Origin: Methylococcaceae bacterium
GTDB lineage: Bacteria; Pseudomonadota; Gammaproteobacteria; Methylococcales; Methylomonadaceae
Direction of reading: 5' to 3'
DNA: 39,435 bases
NCBI GenBank assembly: GCA_012965425.1
Contig: DTSI01000033.1
Coordinates: 1-39,435, forward strand
Within the stretch, counting starts at the first letter, position 1. Each line of letters opens with the position of its first letter. Positions 16,833 through 25,518 of this stretch are shown here, one piece after another. Below the pieces are notes generated by a model. It was not told the origin of the DNA and did no database searches. It saw nothing but the letters and a program-made list of their open reading frames with translations. A program made the translations under genes and the position numbers.

Positions 16833-17699
16833 ATGAATCACAATATGACATTACCTTATAATTTGTCAGCGACTTCATTTGATGGCTATTTAACAGCCGT
16901 CAATCAACTGGAACCTTTAAGTTCAGAGCAAGAGCAAGAATTGGCAAGACGTTTTCATGAAGAAAATGATTTAGAGGCCGCGCGGTTGCTCGTGATGTCT
17001 AATTTAAGATTTGTAGTGCATGTGGCGCGTGGTTATGCGGGTTATGGCTTATCGCTCAATGATATTGTTCAGGAAGGCAATATTGGTTTAATGAAAGCGG
17101 TTAAACGTTTTGATCCTAATGTTGGCGTTCGGTTGATTACCTTTGCCGTTCATTGGATTCGCGCTGAAATTCATGAATATGTGATTAAAAATTGGCGTGT
17201 AGTAAAAATTGCGACCACTAAAGCACAACGGAAGTTATTCTTTAATTTAAGAAAATCGAAAAAGAATTTAGGCTGGTTGAGTCATGATGAAGCCAAAGCA
17301 ATTGCCGGTGATTTAGGCGTAAAACTTGAAAGCGTTTATGAAATGGAAAAACGGCTTAATGCGAGTGATATGGCTTTTGATTTAAAATCAGAAGACAATC
17401 CAAACCTTGATGATAAGCCTACAGCAACCCCAGCGCAATTTTTGGTTCAACAAGGCACGGATCCTGCCCAGATTTTAGAAAAAGCAGACTGGGGTAGTCA
17501 TAACAGTCAATTATTACTTCAGGCCATGGCTGATTTAGATGAACGTAGTCAGGATATTTTGAAAAATCGTTGGTTAAATGACAAAAAGATGACCCTGCAG
17601 GAATTAGCAAATCGCTATGTCGTTTCCGCTGAGCGTATTCGGCAATTAGAAAAGGTTGCGATGGAGAAGATTAAAGCAGCGATACTCATGGCGCATTAA
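16833..17699 (+). CDS. rpoH: RNA polymerase sigma-32 (heat-shock) factor RpoH
   Basis: Sigma-70-family alternative factor directing RNA polymerase to heat-shock promoters. The 288 residues show region 2 (RLLVMSNLRFVVHVARGY, NDIVQEGNIGLMKAVKRFDP, RLITFAVHWIRAEIHEYV) and the RpoH box QRKLFFNLRKSKK near residue 132, the diagnostic feature. Region 4 contains a helix-turn-helix (TLQELANRYVVSAERIRQLE). The E. coli protein has 284 residues. A CIRCE element precedes it and a strong terminator follows, so it appears to be a single-gene unit. Its 5' region lacks a strong ribosome binding site, as expected where translation is regulated. Confidence 0.97.
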   Translation: MNHNMTLPYNLSATSFDGYLTAVNQLEPLSSEQEQELARRFHEENDLEAARLLVMSNLRFVVHVARGYAGYGLSLNDIVQEGNIGLMKAVKRFDPNVGVRLITFAVHWIRAEIHEYVIKNWRVVKIATTKAQRKLFFNLRKSKKNLGWLSHDEAKAIAGDLGVKLESVYEMEKRLNASDMAFDLKSEDNPNLDDKPTATPAQFLVQQGTDPAQILEKADWGSHNSQLLLQAMADLDERSQDILKNRWLNDKKMTLQELANRYVVSAERIRQLEKVAMEKIKAAILMAH

Positions 17700-18048: not shown

Positions 18049-18789
18049 GTGATTAAGAAAATGTTAGGTGTAGTGCTCATTGTTGTTATGGGGTTGGCGC
18101 ATTTCAGTATTCAGGCTGAATCATCAGCCGCTCAGGTACAGGCTATACCTATATTATCGAAACAAGAAATTATTGCTTTTGGTGATGCCACTTATTTATT
18201 TGACCATCGGGAATATAACTCGTTAACCGTCTCAGGCGGTTTTAAAAACTTACCGTTGGGTTTTAATGCCTGGGGTTTTATTGATATTCTCAGTGATCAA
18301 AATAATGAAAGTAATCGTTTTGATTTTACGCGTTATTTCTTGGAATATCGTCTGCGACGAACTTTGGATCCTGAATGGGTTATGGGGGTTAAAGGTTTGG
18401 GACTCGAGGTGGAATATAACGATGCGAATGGTGCTAATAATAACTTATTAAGATTTGGTGTCAATTACAAGCATGATATTCCTTTGATCGCGGGTCAGAA
18501 AAGTTGGCTGCAATGGCGATATTTTCCAATACAAACGAATCAATATGCAAGGTCTCAAGCCAGTGTTGTATATCGACTAGGGTTAACGAAGCGACTGTAT
18601 ATCAGAGGTTTTGCAGACTTTAATATCGATGAAGATGGTAAGAATCGTTGGGTAGCAGAGCCGCAGTTGCATTATGAGATTATTGATAATGTTAATTTTG
18701 TATTAGAAGGACGAATTAATGAGTACGAAGGGGCTAATGCAAAGTTAACTGGCACAGGGGTTGCATTCGGTTTGCAAGTGCTTTTTTAA
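18049..18789 (+). CDS. Predicted outer-membrane beta-barrel protein, Tsx-like in pattern
   Basis: A 246-residue exported protein. A signal peptide (basic MIKK, hydrophobic core, cleavage after IQA, about residue 24) is followed by alternating aromatic/polar strands and a C-terminal Phe (GLQVLF), as in outer-membrane barrels. The segments FGDATYLFD and NAWGFIDI recall nucleoside-channel (Tsx-like) proteins, but I would not assign a substrate. The start is GTG, with AAGGGAG seven bases upstream, a strong site. It is the first gene after the sigma-54 promoter. The binding-protein gene begins 12 bases after its stop, so the two are co-transcribed; it may admit or bind the molecule being sensed. 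Confidence 0.7.
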   Translation: MIKKMLGVVLIVVMGLAHFSIQAESSAAQVQAIPILSKQEIIAFGDATYLFDHREYNSLTVSGGFKNLPLGFNAWGFIDILSDQNNESNRFDFTRYFLEYRLRRTLDPEWVMGVKGLGLEVEYNDANGANNNLLRFGVNYKHDIPLIAGQKSWLQWRYFPIQTNQYARSQASVVYRLGLTKRLYIRGFADFNIDEDGKNRWVAEPQLHYEIIDNVNFVLEGRINEYEGANAKLTGTGVAFGLQVLF

Positions 18790-18801
18790 TAGGACGGTTT
18801 A

Positions 18802-19590
18802 ATGGACTCTTTGCAAAAAAGAACAATGCTGATTTTGGGTATGACTTTTACCCTAATCGTTATCATGATTTATGGTAATAATAAAAATGAAGTGCGGTCA
18901 AAACCGAGTAATAGCGCGTTATCGTTGGATTTTCTAATCAGGAGTGATGTTGGGTCGAAACCTAAGAGTAGCTTAGAAGACGGAGGGGTTATCCTGACAC
19001 TAGGGCTAACGGAATCAGCTAAACAGTCATTATTTGTCGAACAGTTTGTACGCTCGGTTAAAGAAAAAAGTAAAGGGAAGATTGTGATTGAGCCCCATCT
19101 TATTTCTCAAGATGTCACAGAGCAACCACTAACAGAAGTGATCAACGGTGACGTTGATATCGTCTTGACGGATCTGACGGAAGTGGGGGCAATGATTCCT
19201 GAACTTGCTTTTCTACAAAGCCCAGGATTGTTTAATGATGTGGCTGAGATGAACAAAATTTGGACTTCTGAAATGGGAGACTATTTAAGGTCTAAAGCCC
19301 TTAAAAAAGAATTTACATTAGCCGCTTTCGAAATCTCTGGTTTTAGCCATTTCTTAACAGCTCAACCTATTGCTCATTTTGAAGAGGTTCAAAATAACAT
19401 GGTAGGGATTCCAGAGAAGGGTTTTGACGGGTTATTGTTGGAAAGATTGGACCTTAATACGCGAATGGTAGAGCCTGAACAAATTTTACCGGCGGTTGCG
19501 GACGGTGTTATACCAACTTATAGCGCAACAATGGAGCAGATGGCTTCAAGTAATGTAAAATTCGCCGCTAAAATTTCTAGCGCGGGATAA
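18802..19590 (+). CDS. TRAP-type (DctP) solute-binding protein, N-terminal part of a frameshifted gene
   Basis: 262 residues with an N-terminal membrane anchor or uncleaved signal (about 8-25). A DctP-type domain begins near residue 53 (VILTLGLTESAKQSLFVEQFVRSV) and includes the family-like EVINGDVDIVLTD and AFLQSPGLFNDV. The frame stops in the domain's last third, just before the strand that closes the fold. The missing part (LSGRFVVINPQRLSALPKRL) lies in the next frame at 19595. Omitting one G of the GGG at 19584-19586 joins the two frames and reads S-A-D-N-L-M-L-S-G-R-F. AGGA lies seven bases upstream of the ATG. Either a real inactivating frameshift or a one-base assembly error; I favour one original gene. 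Confidence 0.8.
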   Translation: MDSLQKRTMLILGMTFTLIVIMIYGNNKNEVRSKPSNSALSLDFLIRSDVGSKPKSSLEDGGVILTLGLTESAKQSLFVEQFVRSVKEKSKGKIVIEPHLISQDVTEQPLTEVINGDVDIVLTDLTEVGAMIPELAFLQSPGLFNDVAEMNKIWTSEMGDYLRSKALKKEFTLAAFEISGFSHFLTAQPIAHFEEVQNNMVGIPEKGFDGLLLERLDLNTRMVEPEQILPAVADGVIPTYSATMEQMASSNVKFAAKISSAG

Positions 19591-19594
19591 TTTA

Positions 19595-20980
19595 ATGTTA
19601 TCCGGCCGGTTTGTCGTAATTAACCCACAACGGTTGAGTGCCTTACCTAAACGATTACAACCGGTATTAAAAAACTCAGCAGAAAATATTTTCACCCAGA
19701 ACAGTTCACCCGCATCGCCAGTGAAGGCAATTTCATTGTTAGTAGCGGTAGGCGTTAAGCTGTACGATCTTCCTGAAAAGGCTTTACGTGTATTCAAGCA
19801 ATGGGCTCAGCGAGGCATAGAATTCAAGCGAGAGTTGTGGGGTAATTATCTTATAGAAATGACTCGTCAACTATTACATAGACATCAACCTGTGAGTGAT
19901 AATCAACTTTTGATGGGTTTAGATGCTGATTTGACTTCGAGTGCTTCACAATCAGGTGTTGCTATTAAGCGGGGTATTGAATTGGCGCTTGATGAAATTA
20001 ATCAAGCGGGCGGGGTGTTAGGAAAAGAATTAGTTTTAAAGAGTTTGAGTCATACCGGTTTTAGTGACCAAGGTATTAGAAATATTGGAGCGTTTGCTAA
20101 AGAAATAAATTTGCTGGCAGTCGTTGGTGGCTTACACAGTCCTGTTGCCTTAGCTGAGCAAGAAATTATTCATCAAGAGAAAATAATTTATCTTGACCCG
20201 TGGGCTACTGCAACGGCGATTATTGAAAATGGTTATAACCCAAATTATACCTTTAGACTCTCGGTAAGAGATGAGTATGCGGCACCTTTTTTAGTTTCAA
20301 AGGCGCTTGAACGTGGCTATAAGAGTATAGCTTATCTTTACGAAGACACCGGATGGGGCCGGGGTAACCTGAAAGGGATTACAAAGGCATTAAAGCAACA
20401 AACGAATGATGAGATTGCATTAGTGGCTGCACATTCTTTTGTGTGGGGGGACGATGATTTCAATCGTGTATTGGCCATTATTGAAGCGAAAGGTGCTGAG
20501 GTTATTATTTTGGTTGCTAATGCACCGGAAGGGACTACTCTTTTTAAAAATATGGCTTTAATGAATAGGACAATTCCGGTGATTTCCCATTGGAGAATCA
20601 CCGGAGGAAAACTGGATGGTGCAACTGGGGCGGCCGTGGAAAAACTGGATATAAGTGTCCTGCAGACCTTTAGTATGATGCAGTCGAATACGGAACAGGT
20701 AAAGGCCTTAAAAAAACGTTATTTTGAACGCTATCCGACCGCAGGGGAACAGAAAATAATAGCTGAATCAGATACGGCGCATGCTTATGATCTGATCTAT
20801 CTTTTGGTCAAGGCGGTTGAGCAGGCGCAATCGATTGACCGGGTAAAAGTCAGGGATAGTTTGGAGCATATTGAAAATTATTCCGGTTTGATTAAAGCGT
20901 ATCGCCCTCCCTTTACAACTTCGGATCATGACGCTTTAGGTTTTGAAGATTTGAGTTTAGCCCCTTTTACAGGAAAATAA
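19595..20980 (+). CDS. C-terminal part of DctP domain fused to LivJ-like (Peripla_BP_6) binding domain
   Basis: 461 residues without a signal peptide. Residues 1-95 complete a DctP domain (LSGRFVVINPQRLSALPKRLQ, GVKLYDLPEKALRVFKQWA). From about 105 onward the protein is a type-I periplasmic binding domain of branched-chain amino acid/amide ABC receptors: SGVAIKRGIELALDEINQAGG, LLAVVGGLHSPVALAEQEI, FRLSVRDEYAAPFLV, SIAYLYEDTGWGRGNLKGI. With the upstream frame it would form one exported protein of about 720 residues with two unrelated solute-binding domains. GCGGGA upstream of this ATG could allow some separate initiation, but the product would lack export. The kinase gene follows three bases after its stop. 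Confidence 0.85.
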   Translation: MLSGRFVVINPQRLSALPKRLQPVLKNSAENIFTQNSSPASPVKAISLLVAVGVKLYDLPEKALRVFKQWAQRGIEFKRELWGNYLIEMTRQLLHRHQPVSDNQLLMGLDADLTSSASQSGVAIKRGIELALDEINQAGGVLGKELVLKSLSHTGFSDQGIRNIGAFAKEINLLAVVGGLHSPVALAEQEIIHQEKIIYLDPWATATAIIENGYNPNYTFRLSVRDEYAAPFLVSKALERGYKSIAYLYEDTGWGRGNLKGITKALKQQTNDEIALVAAHSFVWGDDDFNRVLAIIEAKGAEVIILVANAPEGTTLFKNMALMNRTIPVISHWRITGGKLDGATGAAVEKLDISVLQTFSMMQSNTEQVKALKKRYFERYPTAGEQKIIAESDTAHAYDLIYLLVKAVEQAQSIDRVKVRDSLEHIENYSGLIKAYRPPFTTSDHDALGFEDLSLAPFTGK

Positions 20981-20982
20981 CG

Positions 20983-23628
20983 GTGGGGGGAATCGTTTCT
21001 AATCACCGTTTATCGAAATATTGTGAAACCTCTATAACACAACGTTTGACTTCTCAAATGTTACAAATTGTAGGGGTCATGATGTTTTTTGTTTTTATTA
21101 TTTTTGCCTTATCTTTTTTCACCCATATTTACACTCAATTAGAACAGCAAGCCGAAGGTGAACTTCGTAACGATTTAGAAGTTATGGAGTTTATGTTGGA
21201 TGAAATGATGGCGAGGAATGGTGCGTTAAGTCGACGAGATACTGTGATTAAGGGGCTAATTGATCCACAAAGGTGGAAGATTTATTTACTGGGATTTCTT
21301 AAAGAGCAGCAAGAATTATTTGATTTTGACGGATTAGCTGTTGTTAATAATAAAGGTAATCTTATAGTTGAAGGAGTTGAAAATAATAACGTATTGCCCT
21401 GTCTAAATTTTAATAGTGGCCATGAAAATTTGTTTTATTATCGACCCGAGGAAAGAATGATTTGCTTTTTTACGCCTATTGTTATCTATGGGTCTGTACA
21501 GGGTGGTGTTTTAGGAATGATTAACGTTTCTAAATTAATGAGGTTTGCTAAAAAGAAGAATGTAGGATTGATTCAATTATTTTTAGGCGATCGGTTAGCA
21601 CTTCAGTTGCAACATCATCAAGGTAGAATTAGGATTGGAAAAACAATAGCTAAAGAAAAGAATAAAAGAAATATCGAGGATCAATATTTTCTTTTTGAAA
21701 GTAAAGGGACGGATGGTTTAATTTATGTACAGGGCTTGAAGATTAGAATAGTCAATGGACTTAGGCATGACGTTTTTTATCTTCCTATTATTGATGGGTT
21801 AATAGAGTTATTACTCTTAACCTTAGTGGTAATGACTATTACCTTTTTATTATCAAGACACGCTGTTAAGAAGATTACCAAGCCGATATTACTGTTGTGC
21901 GAAAAAGTATCATCTCCTGATGAATCAGTATTATGTAGTCCGACTGGAACTCACGATGAATTAGAACAGTTAGCTCATGTTTTTGATAAAAGGACTCAAG
22001 AACTGATTGACGCTAAATCGGCGGCTATAGAGTCTGATCACGCTAAATCAGTTTTTTTAGCACATATGAGCCATGAAATTAGAACGCCGATGAATGCTAT
22101 TATTGGGTTGGCAGGAATGTTAAAAAAATCATCGTTAGATGATAGGCAAGAACACTATACCAAAAATATCCGCTCAGCCGCAGGTCGGTTATTAATGTTA
22201 ATCAATGATATTTTAGATTTATCTAAAATTGAATCAGGAAAACTAACACTTGAAATGACTCGGTTTAATTTACATGAGTGGGCTGAAGACTTGAGAATCA
22301 TTTTCTCAAATCACAGTAAAAAGGACGTTGAACTGGTTTTTGCATTTGATCCAAAGATTCCTGTGTATATTGTCGGTGATTCGTTACGTTTGAGTCAGGT
22401 TTGTATTAATTTATTAAGTAATGCCATTAAATTTACAGATGAAGGTGGTATTGAATTAAAGTTAGAAACACGAAGAGCCCCCAATAAGAAGATTTTATTT
22501 AGTTGTTCTGTGACAGACACAGGTCTGGGTATGAGTCTTGCAAAGACCCAAGAGATTTTTAAACCATTCGTTCAGGCAGAAACGAATACGACCCGTAAAT
22601 TTGGGGGAACTGGATTAGGATTGTCTATTAGCAAGCAGTTGGTTGAGTTAATGGACGGAAACATAACTTGTCACAGTAAAATAAATGAAGGGAGTCGATT
22701 TGATTTCACTGTGGTTATGGAGAGTGCTGATTCTCCCGAGGCTAATGTTTGTTTCGATGCGTGTAAAGGGCACAAGGTTTTGCTCGTAGCGGATCAAGAA
22801 GGCCTCTGTCAGCAGGCGATTATGTCGACCTTAACAGCATTGTCTCTGCCGGTTCATCAGTTGAGTGGAGGTGGCAAGGCTTTGGAGGAAATTCATCAGG
22901 CTCATGATGTTGAGCTCATTATTTATGATTGTAATACGCAAGAACATTGCGCGGAGGGCTTTTGTCGCTGCGTATATTGTTGTTCTAAGATTATCGTGAA
23001 CAATACCAAGCCAATGCTGGTTGTGGTTGATGATCAAGATAAAGAAAAGATCATACCGGGTAAAGAGGCCGATTTATATTGTTTTATAGAGAAACCGTTG
23101 AGTACTTTCAGTCTTGCTCAAGGCATTAATAATTTCTTTAAAGAACCAAATCCGTCAGAGGCATTGTTAAAGGGTGATGACATAAAGACAAAAGCGGCTG
23201 AAAATTTATCAGGATTGAATATTTTGTTAGTTGAAGATAATGATATCAACCAGGAAATAGTTATTTATTTCTTAGAAGAATATGGGGCACAGGTAACTCT
23301 CGCAGAAAATGGCTTAGAAGCGATTGAGGCAACCCGGAAGCAACAATTTGATTGTGTTTTGATGGACTTACAGATGCCGGTTATGAATGGTATTACGGCA
23401 ACACAAGTTATTCGAAAAAACGCTAAATATAATAAAATACCGATCATAGCCTGTACGGCTGATGCGATGCCTGAAGAGTTAAAGGGGATTAAATCATCCG
23501 GAATGAATGCGCGGGTGTTAAAGCCGATTGATTCTGCGTTATTGTTGAAGACTATTACGTCTTTGGTTCATGATGAATCCGCTATGGATATGGCGGGCGA
23601 AGGTCCTAGGGAAGATTTTATCTCTTAA
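20983..23628 (+). CDS. Hybrid sensor histidine kinase with extracytoplasmic sensor and two receiver domains
   Basis: 881-residue inner-membrane kinase. TM1 (about 27-50) and TM2 (about 268-292) flank a 215-residue periplasmic domain with Cache-like character (FDGLAVVNNKGNLIVEG). A HAMP-like linker is followed by HisKA with the phospho-acceptor His364 in HMSHEIRTP, then an HATPase with N box LLSNAIKF, DTGLGMS and GGTGLGLSI. A first receiver (about 595-715) is degenerate: its acidic pocket reads LLVADQEG. The second (about 744-865) is intact: LLVEDNDIN, Asp795 in VLMDLQMPVMNG, and VLKPID. Start GTG with AGGA eight bases upstream. Last gene of the sigma-54 cluster; it probably takes its input from the upstream binding protein. 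No DNA-binding partner regulator is adjacent. Confidence 0.93.
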   Translation: MGGIVSNHRLSKYCETSITQRLTSQMLQIVGVMMFFVFIIFALSFFTHIYTQLEQQAEGELRNDLEVMEFMLDEMMARNGALSRRDTVIKGLIDPQRWKIYLLGFLKEQQELFDFDGLAVVNNKGNLIVEGVENNNVLPCLNFNSGHENLFYYRPEERMICFFTPIVIYGSVQGGVLGMINVSKLMRFAKKKNVGLIQLFLGDRLALQLQHHQGRIRIGKTIAKEKNKRNIEDQYFLFESKGTDGLIYVQGLKIRIVNGLRHDVFYLPIIDGLIELLLLTLVVMTITFLLSRHAVKKITKPILLLCEKVSSPDESVLCSPTGTHDELEQLAHVFDKRTQELIDAKSAAIESDHAKSVFLAHMSHEIRTPMNAIIGLAGMLKKSSLDDRQEHYTKNIRSAAGRLLMLINDILDLSKIESGKLTLEMTRFNLHEWAEDLRIIFSNHSKKDVELVFAFDPKIPVYIVGDSLRLSQVCINLLSNAIKFTDEGGIELKLETRRAPNKKILFSCSVTDTGLGMSLAKTQEIFKPFVQAETNTTRKFGGTGLGLSISKQLVELMDGNITCHSKINEGSRFDFTVVMESADSPEANVCFDACKGHKVLLVADQEGLCQQAIMSTLTALSLPVHQLSGGGKALEEIHQAHDVELIIYDCNTQEHCAEGFCRCVYCCSKIIVNNTKPMLVVVDDQDKEKIIPGKEADLYCFIEKPLSTFSLAQGINNFFKEPNPSEALLKGDDIKTKAAENLSGLNILLVEDNDINQEIVIYFLEEYGAQVTLAENGLEAIEATRKQQFDCVLMDLQMPVMNGITATQVIRKNAKYNKIPIIACTADAMPEELKGIKSSGMNARVLKPIDSALLLKTITSLVHDESAMDMAGEGPREDFIS

Positions 23629-23757: not shown

Positions 23758-25518
23758 ATGCCGCGACTTTTTGCTAACCTTTTCTTTCTTTCTTTTTTAG
23801 TCTCAGGGTGTACTTTTATTGGGGACAGGTCAATTCTTTCTGAGTCTGAGGGGCGTTATGTAGGTGTATTGGTAGATGGCGTCCGACAAGGGCAGGGGCG
23901 TTATACTTTTCCAGAGGGTCAGTTTTATCAGGGTGAATTTGACCAAGGTAATTTTCATGGGAAAGGCAGTTTTCAATATGTGAATGGTGACCATTATGAC
24001 GGTGAATGGATTAATAACCAGCGTCAAGGAAATGGGGTTTATCATTTTAGTTCAGGAAGTCAATACAGTGGTGAATGGCGCAAGGATAAGCAAGAAGGCC
24101 AAGGAACTCTAAGTGAGAAGAATGGCGATCAGTATCATGGGAATTGGTTAAAAGGGATGCCGCACGGGGAAGGCATAAAACGTTATGCCGATGGGCGACA
24201 TTATCAAGGGGAGTTTATTCAAGGAAATTTCTCAGGTTCCGGTATTTTTACAACCCCCAGTGGAAGGCGTTATGACGGACAGTGGATAGAAGGAAAGCGT
24301 TCTGGGCAAGGTGAGTTTATATTTATTAATGGTGATCGGTACCAAGGGTTTTGGGGAAATAATCAATTAAATGGACTGGGACGTTATCAATTTTCAGACG
24401 GTTCCTCTTATCAAGGAAAGTTTTTTCACGGTCGTATTCAAGGTGCTGGAAAGTTCGTTGTCCCTGACCGTTTTGAATATGTGGGTGAGTTTCAAAACAG
24501 TCAGTTTCAGGGGTTTGGACGTTTAGTGTTTAACGACGAGACAAAATATTCAGGGCATTTTATAGCCGGGAAATTTAATGGATACGGCATTTTTTCGTTT
24601 AAAGATGGCGGTCAATACAATGGAGAATGGAAAAATGGAGTACCTGAAGGGTATGGGCGCTATAGTGCATCAAATAACGCTGACTTTTCCGGGCGCTGGG
24701 AAAATGGCGTTCTGTTAGGTGAAACAGATGCTATTAGCTTAACGGTACCCGGTGATATTCGGGGTATTACAAATCTGGCGGCTACTAATTTAGAGGGGTG
24801 GGTGTTAGCGGCAACGGGGGAAGGGGTATTTGTTTCGCCGGTAGGACATATATTAACTACCCAGAATGTCGCGAAAGGATGTGAGCAAATAACATTTAAT
24901 AAACAAGGTGCTGAATTTGTTGCAAGTGTTCGTGCTGAGAATTTAACCGTGAATTTAGCCTTACTAAACGCAATGATCAGCCCGGAGATATTCTTAGCGT
25001 TAAGTCATAAGGATATTTTTATTATGAAAGAATTATGGGTGCTAAGAGCCTTAGCTAAGATGCCACGAGAGGCGAAAAAAAGTCTTGAATCAGTGGTTGT
25101 GTCAGCAGTGAGTGGAGTAAAAAATAAAGTCACAGAATTACAAATAGAAGGTGACTTTGAAACTATTTTGGGTGGAAGTGCAGTGGTTGATAACAACGGT
25201 AGGTTAACAGCCTTACTCGAGGATAAGCGTGCCCTTCAAATGGGCCATGATTTTTGGCGTCCAGTCCCTAAAAATACCCAGTTCGCAATTAAGGCCCAGG
25301 CTATTGAGAAATTCTTAAATAATGAAGGGCTTTTATACCCGTTAGAAGAAGATGAAGTCCAGTCTGACTCGGATTTAGAAAGGATTTTAACCAAGGCGAC
25401 AGTTAATTTATCCTGTTGGATGACCGCATCTAAAGTTGAAGCGTTCAAAGACACTAAAATATTATTTGAGGACGTTATAAGACCCAAGTTTTCTAAACCG
25501 TTAGAGTCTCAATTTTAG
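23758..25518 (+). CDS. MORN-repeat lipoprotein with a degenerate trypsin-like domain
   Basis: 586 residues. A lipoprotein signal ends in the lipobox VSGC, with acylated Cys18. About 13 MORN repeats of 23 residues follow (roughly 33-322; core Y-x-GEW-x-x-G-x-x-x-GxG). The C-terminal region (about 350-510) resembles an S1C-like trypsin fold: GEGVFVSPVGHILTTQNV, NLALLNA, GGSAVVDNNGRLTAL. The catalytic triad positions read Asn370 for His, Asn399 for Asp and Leu near 471 for Ser, so it should not be proteolytic. MORN repeats bind membranes or proteins and act as scaffolds. Function unknown. It is separated from the kinase gene by 129 bases and may or may not belong with it. Confidence 0.85.
   Translation: MPRLFANLFFLSFLVSGCTFIGDRSILSESEGRYVGVLVDGVRQGQGRYTFPEGQFYQGEFDQGNFHGKGSFQYVNGDHYDGEWINNQRQGNGVYHFSSGSQYSGEWRKDKQEGQGTLSEKNGDQYHGNWLKGMPHGEGIKRYADGRHYQGEFIQGNFSGSGIFTTPSGRRYDGQWIEGKRSGQGEFIFINGDRYQGFWGNNQLNGLGRYQFSDGSSYQGKFFHGRIQGAGKFVVPDRFEYVGEFQNSQFQGFGRLVFNDETKYSGHFIAGKFNGYGIFSFKDGGQYNGEWKNGVPEGYGRYSASNNADFSGRWENGVLLGETDAISLTVPGDIRGITNLAATNLEGWVLAATGEGVFVSPVGHILTTQNVAKGCEQITFNKQGAEFVASVRAENLTVNLALLNAMISPEIFLALSHKDIFIMKELWVLRALAKMPREAKKSLESVVVSAVSGVKNKVTELQIEGDFETILGGSAVVDNNGRLTALLEDKRALQMGHDFWRPVPKNTQFAIKAQAIEKFLNNEGLLYPLEEDEVQSDSDLERILTKATVNLSCWMTASKVEAFKDTKILFEDVIRPKFSKPLESQF

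Follow-up and report, generated by a model that had tools for sequence, protein, structure and literature searches.

The genes at positions 18049-23628 on the forward strand of the 39,435-nucleotide stretch analysed here (the window) are best read as a binding-protein-dependent sensory unit in which a fused solute-binding protein serves a histidine kinase instead of a transporter, a reading to which we assign a probability of roughly 0.7. It draws on the domains encoded, the linkage of the genes in a three-gene block, the lack of transporter genes, a conserved pairing of fusion and receptor with interchangeable outputs, and the dCache fold of the kinase model. The source genome is a small Methylococcales assembly (2.3 Mb in 155 contigs), and the block is flanked by genes for a sigma factor (16833-17699) and a MORN-repeat protein (23758-25518). 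It consists of an ORF of 246 aa, a pair of ORFs that carry binding-protein domains and a hybrid kinase of 881 aa. Its features are as follows:

18049..18789, + strand: probable outer-membrane beta-barrel, 246 aa, with signal sequence (intact ORF; strands in a low-confidence model)
18802..19590, + strand: first part of the binding-protein gene, with N-terminal anchor or signal and DctP (TRAP-type) domain (PF03480; frame change relative to the intact L021)
19557..19560, + strand: one-base frame difference in an A-run, splitting the fusion gene (pairwise alignment with the intact L021; A1 profile)
19595..20980, + strand: second ORF, with the remaining DctP (about 95 aa) and Peripla_BP_6 (LIV-type, type I) domain (PF13458)
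20983..23628, + strand: hybrid histidine kinase, 881 aa, ordered TM, predicted dCache periplasmic domain, TM, HisKA, HATPase_c, diverged receiver with Cys-rich insert, receiver (Pfam; sensor fold)

The first-pass annotation had described three tightly linked genes, 12 and 3 bases apart, for a barrel, a double solute-binding protein and a hybrid kinase with a large periplasmic domain, with no TRAP membrane subunits and no ABC permease or ATPase genes beside them. The close spacing stands, with measured gaps of 12 bases between the barrel and binding-protein genes and 2 bases between the binding-protein gene and the kinase. The lack of transporter membrane genes within the block was borne out by its ORFs and their Pfam matches, and the description of the kinase by its Pfam domains and predicted dCache-like fold. 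Both binding domains were present as well, but they do not form one open gene, being divided between ORFs 18802-19590 and 19595-20980.

The pairing of the fusion with a receptor extends beyond this genome. We searched class-wide with the Peripla_BP_6 protein of a genome from a second Methylococcales family (G046), where the order is Tsx-like barrel, Peripla_BP_6 protein and hybrid kinase, and phylum- and order-wide with an alignment of the fusions. The count excludes one duplicate record and one contig end and comes to 43 intact fusions whose downstream gene could be read; neighbours were classed by single-sequence searches with our own reference domains, with a Pfam check on a subset. A receptor- or sensor-like gene directly followed the fusion in 43 of 43 cases, spread over 14 families; these belong to Gammaproteobacteria and to one or more further classes of the phylum. 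The next gene encoded a histidine kinase in 33 cases (at L059, about 480 bases away), a GGDEF-EAL protein in one, a dCache protein cut by the contig end in one, and a receptor- or sensor-like protein in the remaining eight; these eight mostly gave PAS or weak dCache matches, one had no Pfam match at all, and a kinase gene came next in seven of them. At eight loci (L128-L135) the fusion precedes a protein, mostly of PAS/dCache type, that has no kinase domain and is usually followed by a separate receiver-HisKA-HATPase protein, an arrangement that amounts to a split version of the receptor. Most fusion and receptor genes overlap or sit within about 55 bases of each other. The receptors of the other fusions gave weak dCache_1 matches. 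The kind of sensor domain (dCache) is constant while the output, kinase or GGDEF-EAL, varies. The co-occurrence of binding protein and kinase that the first-pass annotation had proposed to look for across genomes was thus found.

Transporter membrane genes beside orthologues of the fusion, which would have spoken against a sensory role, were also looked for, and no DctM or LIV permease or ATPase gene was found near the fusion at any of the 43 loci. As a control from the same survey, 18 of 21 DctP-only loci had DctM within the fetched stretch; the difference gives a Fisher p of 4e-13, a value that overstates independence because many of the genomes are related; a stronger argument is that the loci come from 14 families. 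Among relatives that carry Peripla_BP_6 only, 19 adjoin receptors and 13 adjoin LIV permease or ATPase genes. A tree was built of 77 Peripla_BP_6 domains, with some state labels set by hand from the neighbour results, and in it the 13 transporter-linked proteins and one unassigned row formed a single clade (SH-aLRT 99). The receptor-linked proteins fell outside it, and a single change of state accounts for the pattern. Since the deep branches among the fusions were weakly resolved, we make no claim that the fusion arose only once.

These results bear on the view that the binding protein is a transport protein whose membrane subunits are encoded elsewhere, its place beside the kinase reflecting co-regulation only. 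The genome does hold one DctM gene, on another contig (C97), and this is the nearest to the block, where the DctP gene is not accompanied by DctQM. A second, canonical and full-length DctP on yet another contig is the natural partner of that DctM, however, and the fusions never have DctM or LIV genes as neighbours; permease and ATPase genes of the LivHMGF type are likewise missing from the block and from the fusion loci. The conserved arginine of the DctP half has also been lost here, and the transporter-linked Peripla_BP_6 proteins are a separate clade. Based on the neighbour census and the tree we rejected a transport role for the fusion, and we consider this view very improbable. The canonical DctP gene (contig C109; L145 9403-10473) stands alone between genes for argininosuccinate lyase and GAPDH, the only DctM being on C97.

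The kinase (20983-23628) gave Pfam matches to HisKA, HATPase_c and Response_reg, its first receiver being diverged and its terminal one clear, and Pfam found no Hpt domain in it. The periplasmic region of about 200 aa had no Pfam match by itself. A structural model of the N-terminal 339 residues, built with 16 relatives, reached a mean pLDDT of 76 with much of the core at 85-93; its best PDB matches include the dCache domains of KinD, DctB and LuxQ, the last both alone and with LuxP (2hj9, 3c38). This model suggests that the periplasmic domain has a dCache-type fold like that of LuxQ. The sensor domain evolves fast (dN/dS 0.52), which weighs against the sensory reading, and orthologues of the 881-aa kinase are intact in two congeners, G003 and G002. 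We rejected an assignment to BarA/GacS, as the kinase scored 406 bits against a curated BarA cut-off of 890 and has no Hpt. Three Hpt-containing genes occur elsewhere in the genome, and the 255-aa product of one of them could be a separate phosphotransfer protein, a candidate with nothing linking it to this kinase. The first, diverged receiver (window 22740-23196, kinase residues about 590-740) carries a Cys-rich insert, CNTQEHCAEGFCRCVYCCSK, right after the would-be phospho-acceptor Asp. The core of this insert, CxCVxCCSK, is found in all three congeners and is missing from the receivers of L105 and L110; it may serve as a site for metal binding or redox chemistry.

In the binding-protein region, the DctP match (PF03480, E 5e-17) lies in 18802-19590 and covers only profile positions 10-175 of 286, and the Peripla_BP_6 match (PF13458, E 4.7e-35) covers residues 109-435 of the ORF at 19595-20980. 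The N-terminus is a predicted inner-membrane anchor in this genus and lipoprotein-like in some relatives, and no solved chain spanned both binding domains among the structure matches listed. In TRAP binding proteins a conserved arginine binds the carboxylate of the ligand. This arginine was present in 28 of 45 aligned sequences and is replaced by Gly in the window and in L021, and the DGQEN motif has been lost in the genus of the window; together these losses suggest that the DctP half may no longer bind carboxylates in this genus. The Peripla_BP_6 half is the more constrained of the two and has kept the PWA motif of its family.

The two ORFs are in different frames, with a stop at 19590 and the new frame running from 19595, and their counterpart in the relative G003 is a single intact protein of 725 aa (L021, from the Methylococcales MAG OPU3_GD_OMZ, the nearest named record), to which the ORF at 19595-20980 is 79% identical. 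Aligned to this relative, the window sequence differs by one base in length within the A-run at 19557-19560, and the A1 family profile matches 18811-19560 and then 19559-20971 in the other frame, with the switch at 19559/19560. The dN/dS was about 0.40 for the DctP parts and, against G003, 0.20 for the Peripla_BP_6 half. Since both flanks of the frame difference are still constrained, the event must be recent, unless it reflects an error of assembly. The fusion gene of G002 has lost DctP and part of Peripla_BP_6 through a deletion, and it also carries a stop, with the barrel and the 881-aa kinase intact. Unless the frameshift proves to be an error, the copy in the window genome, as annotated, probably does not function, and it may be decaying.

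For this genome, then, the unit has either been recently crippled or has been misread. Misreading, meaning that an error in sequencing or assembly produced the frameshift and that all three components are intact in the window genome, has in our judgement slightly less than an even chance; it accords with a difference of a single base in an A-run, with constraint on the sequence to either side and with the lack of any other obviously broken gene among the window ORFs examined, but the independent truncation in G002 shows that loss of the fusion gene does occur in the genus. That same truncation, which leaves barrel and kinase intact, joins the frameshift in the window and the absence of the whole unit from a third congener (G004) in favour of decay within the genus, the binding protein having been lost from the window genome and G002 and the kinase alone sensing its ligand directly through its dCache domain. 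The kinase dN/dS between these genomes (0.44-0.50) is in keeping with decay, as is the precedent of CuaSR, which perceives cellobiose without CuaD (PMC10384115). We hold decay to be somewhat the less probable of the two, as the fusion gene is intact in G003, a frameshift of one base in an A-run may itself be an assembly error, and the constraint on the Peripla_BP_6 half 3' of the frameshift (0.20 against G003) means that any loss must be very recent. With the fusion frameshifted here and truncated in G002, no working line from outer membrane to cytoplasm can be claimed for this organism.

The barrel, fusion and kinase genes behave as a unit. In G004, a genome of the same genus that is 99% complete, the genes S1-ylqF-sigma-MORN-UDG-uvrC-pgsA are in the same order, and searches of this genome for the barrel, the fusion and the kinase sensor domain found none of them; only 196 bases separate the sigma and MORN genes (L196 3646-3843), where the three would stand. 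That exactly these three are missing indicates that they were gained or lost together and that the MORN and sigma genes are not part of the unit. The MORN-repeat protein (23758-25518) is lipoprotein-like with a weak match to trypsin-like peptidases, and its gene is conserved in the genus downstream of the unit yet independent of it.

The 246-aa product of 18049-18789 had no Pfam or NCBIfam match, and its AlphaFold2 model, of low confidence (pLDDT 49), showed 12 strands after an N-terminal helix; from this strand content we regard it as a probable outer-membrane beta-barrel. Congeners have orthologues at 83-85%, and G112 has one at 39%. Among the class genomes searched G112 is the only one outside this genus to have the barrel, and there the gene is in divergent orientation and adjoins another fusion-kinase pair. 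The family occurred in two of 369 genomes of the class, both times at a fusion locus. We rejected a Tsx-type channel, as there was no Pfam match to Channel_Tsx and hhalign gave a probability of 1% against the Tsx-like barrels found beside related pairs. Five Methylococcales loci (L022, L141, L142, L144 and L151) carry a Tsx-like barrel, a Peripla_BP_6 protein and a hybrid kinase in this order, a parallel version of the trio with a barrel that, judged by profile comparison, is unrelated. The rare barrel here and the Tsx-like barrel at those five loci suggest that an outer-membrane channel is a recurrent but optional accessory. The first-pass annotation had made the barrel part of the system; its ORF is intact, but most fusion-kinase pairs are without it, and it is not a general part.

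Several known systems resemble the unit in part. TorT-TorS, which senses TMAO, combines a periplasmic binding protein with a hybrid kinase and no transporter, as here, and differs in the family of its single-lobe binding protein, in its sensor fold and in the Hpt domain of TorS. NspS, a polyamine-type single-domain binding protein unlike the two-domain fusion, presents its ligand to MbaA, a membrane GGDEF-EAL protein, and one relative of the present fusion (L061) likewise precedes a dCache GGDEF-EAL protein. The LuxP-LuxQ pair of Vibrio is similar in its periplasmic type I binding protein, its lack of a dedicated transporter and its hybrid kinase with a dCache domain, here a predicted one, whereas LuxP is a single-domain protein of a sugar-type family and the fusion joins two unrelated families. 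In CuaD-CuaS-CuaR a solute-binding protein is also encoded beside the kinase, and its role as a high-affinity input has been demonstrated by experiment; that system is Gram-positive and specific for cellobiose, with a single-domain binding protein and a kinase that controls a transporter operon (PMC10384115). In BctC-BctE of Bordetella the binding protein docks on the sensor domain of the kinase, the likeness that we propose here, and BctC belongs to a tripartite tricarboxylate transporter as well, unlike the present case with no transporter genes (cited in PMC9602780). The principle of binding-protein-dependent sensing is thus established for other binding proteins (PMC9602780, PMC10384115). 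The first-pass annotation had named the system a candidate undescribed one, which appears to hold for its input but not for the class of mechanism, already known: we found no description of a DctP-Peripla_BP_6 fusion as receptor input, or of this gene set, in the open-access literature, itself weak evidence of absence, and the new element appears to be the tandem TRAP and LIV binding protein as a dedicated receptor input.

From the genes and the model we infer ligand binding, docking, the direction of signalling and the role of the barrel. The fused DctP and Peripla_BP_6 protein would be exported and tethered to a membrane by its N-terminus, where it would capture one or two small solutes and dock on the product of the adjacent kinase gene at its dCache periplasmic domain. 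Docking would alter autophosphorylation of the kinase, and the phosphoryl group would exit through the terminal receiver to a separate Hpt protein and a regulator encoded elsewhere. The barrel, where present, might let the solute, or some larger precursor, cross the outer membrane. The earlier suggestion that the binding domains present ligands to the kinase and not to a transporter holds up well, with a receptor-like gene always coming next and no transporter genes beside the fusions surveyed, but in this genome the fusion is frameshifted. Neighbouring genes for binding proteins and kinases are not always functionally linked, as PA4985-AruS and AgtB-AgtS show no interaction, and adjacency alone is therefore no proof (PMC11113362).

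More broadly, we tentatively suggest, as a possibility that falls well short of an even chance, that these fusions are a widespread and undescribed sensory input in which TRAP-type and LIV-type pockets stand in tandem on one chain, one dCache receptor combines the signals of two solutes that differ in chemistry, and an unrelated outer-membrane channel has been recruited in some lineages. Fused binding proteins of two unrelated transporter classes have apparently left transport and serve receptors in at least 14 families of Proteobacteria, and labels such as 'TRAP' or 'branched-chain amino acid transporter' given by automatic annotation exaggerate the extent of transport in these organisms. The receptor-linked and transporter-linked relatives make up a large comparison set in which to look for the docking surface for dCache domains, and the fusions provide a gene set for asking whether a receptor reads two solutes through one adaptor.
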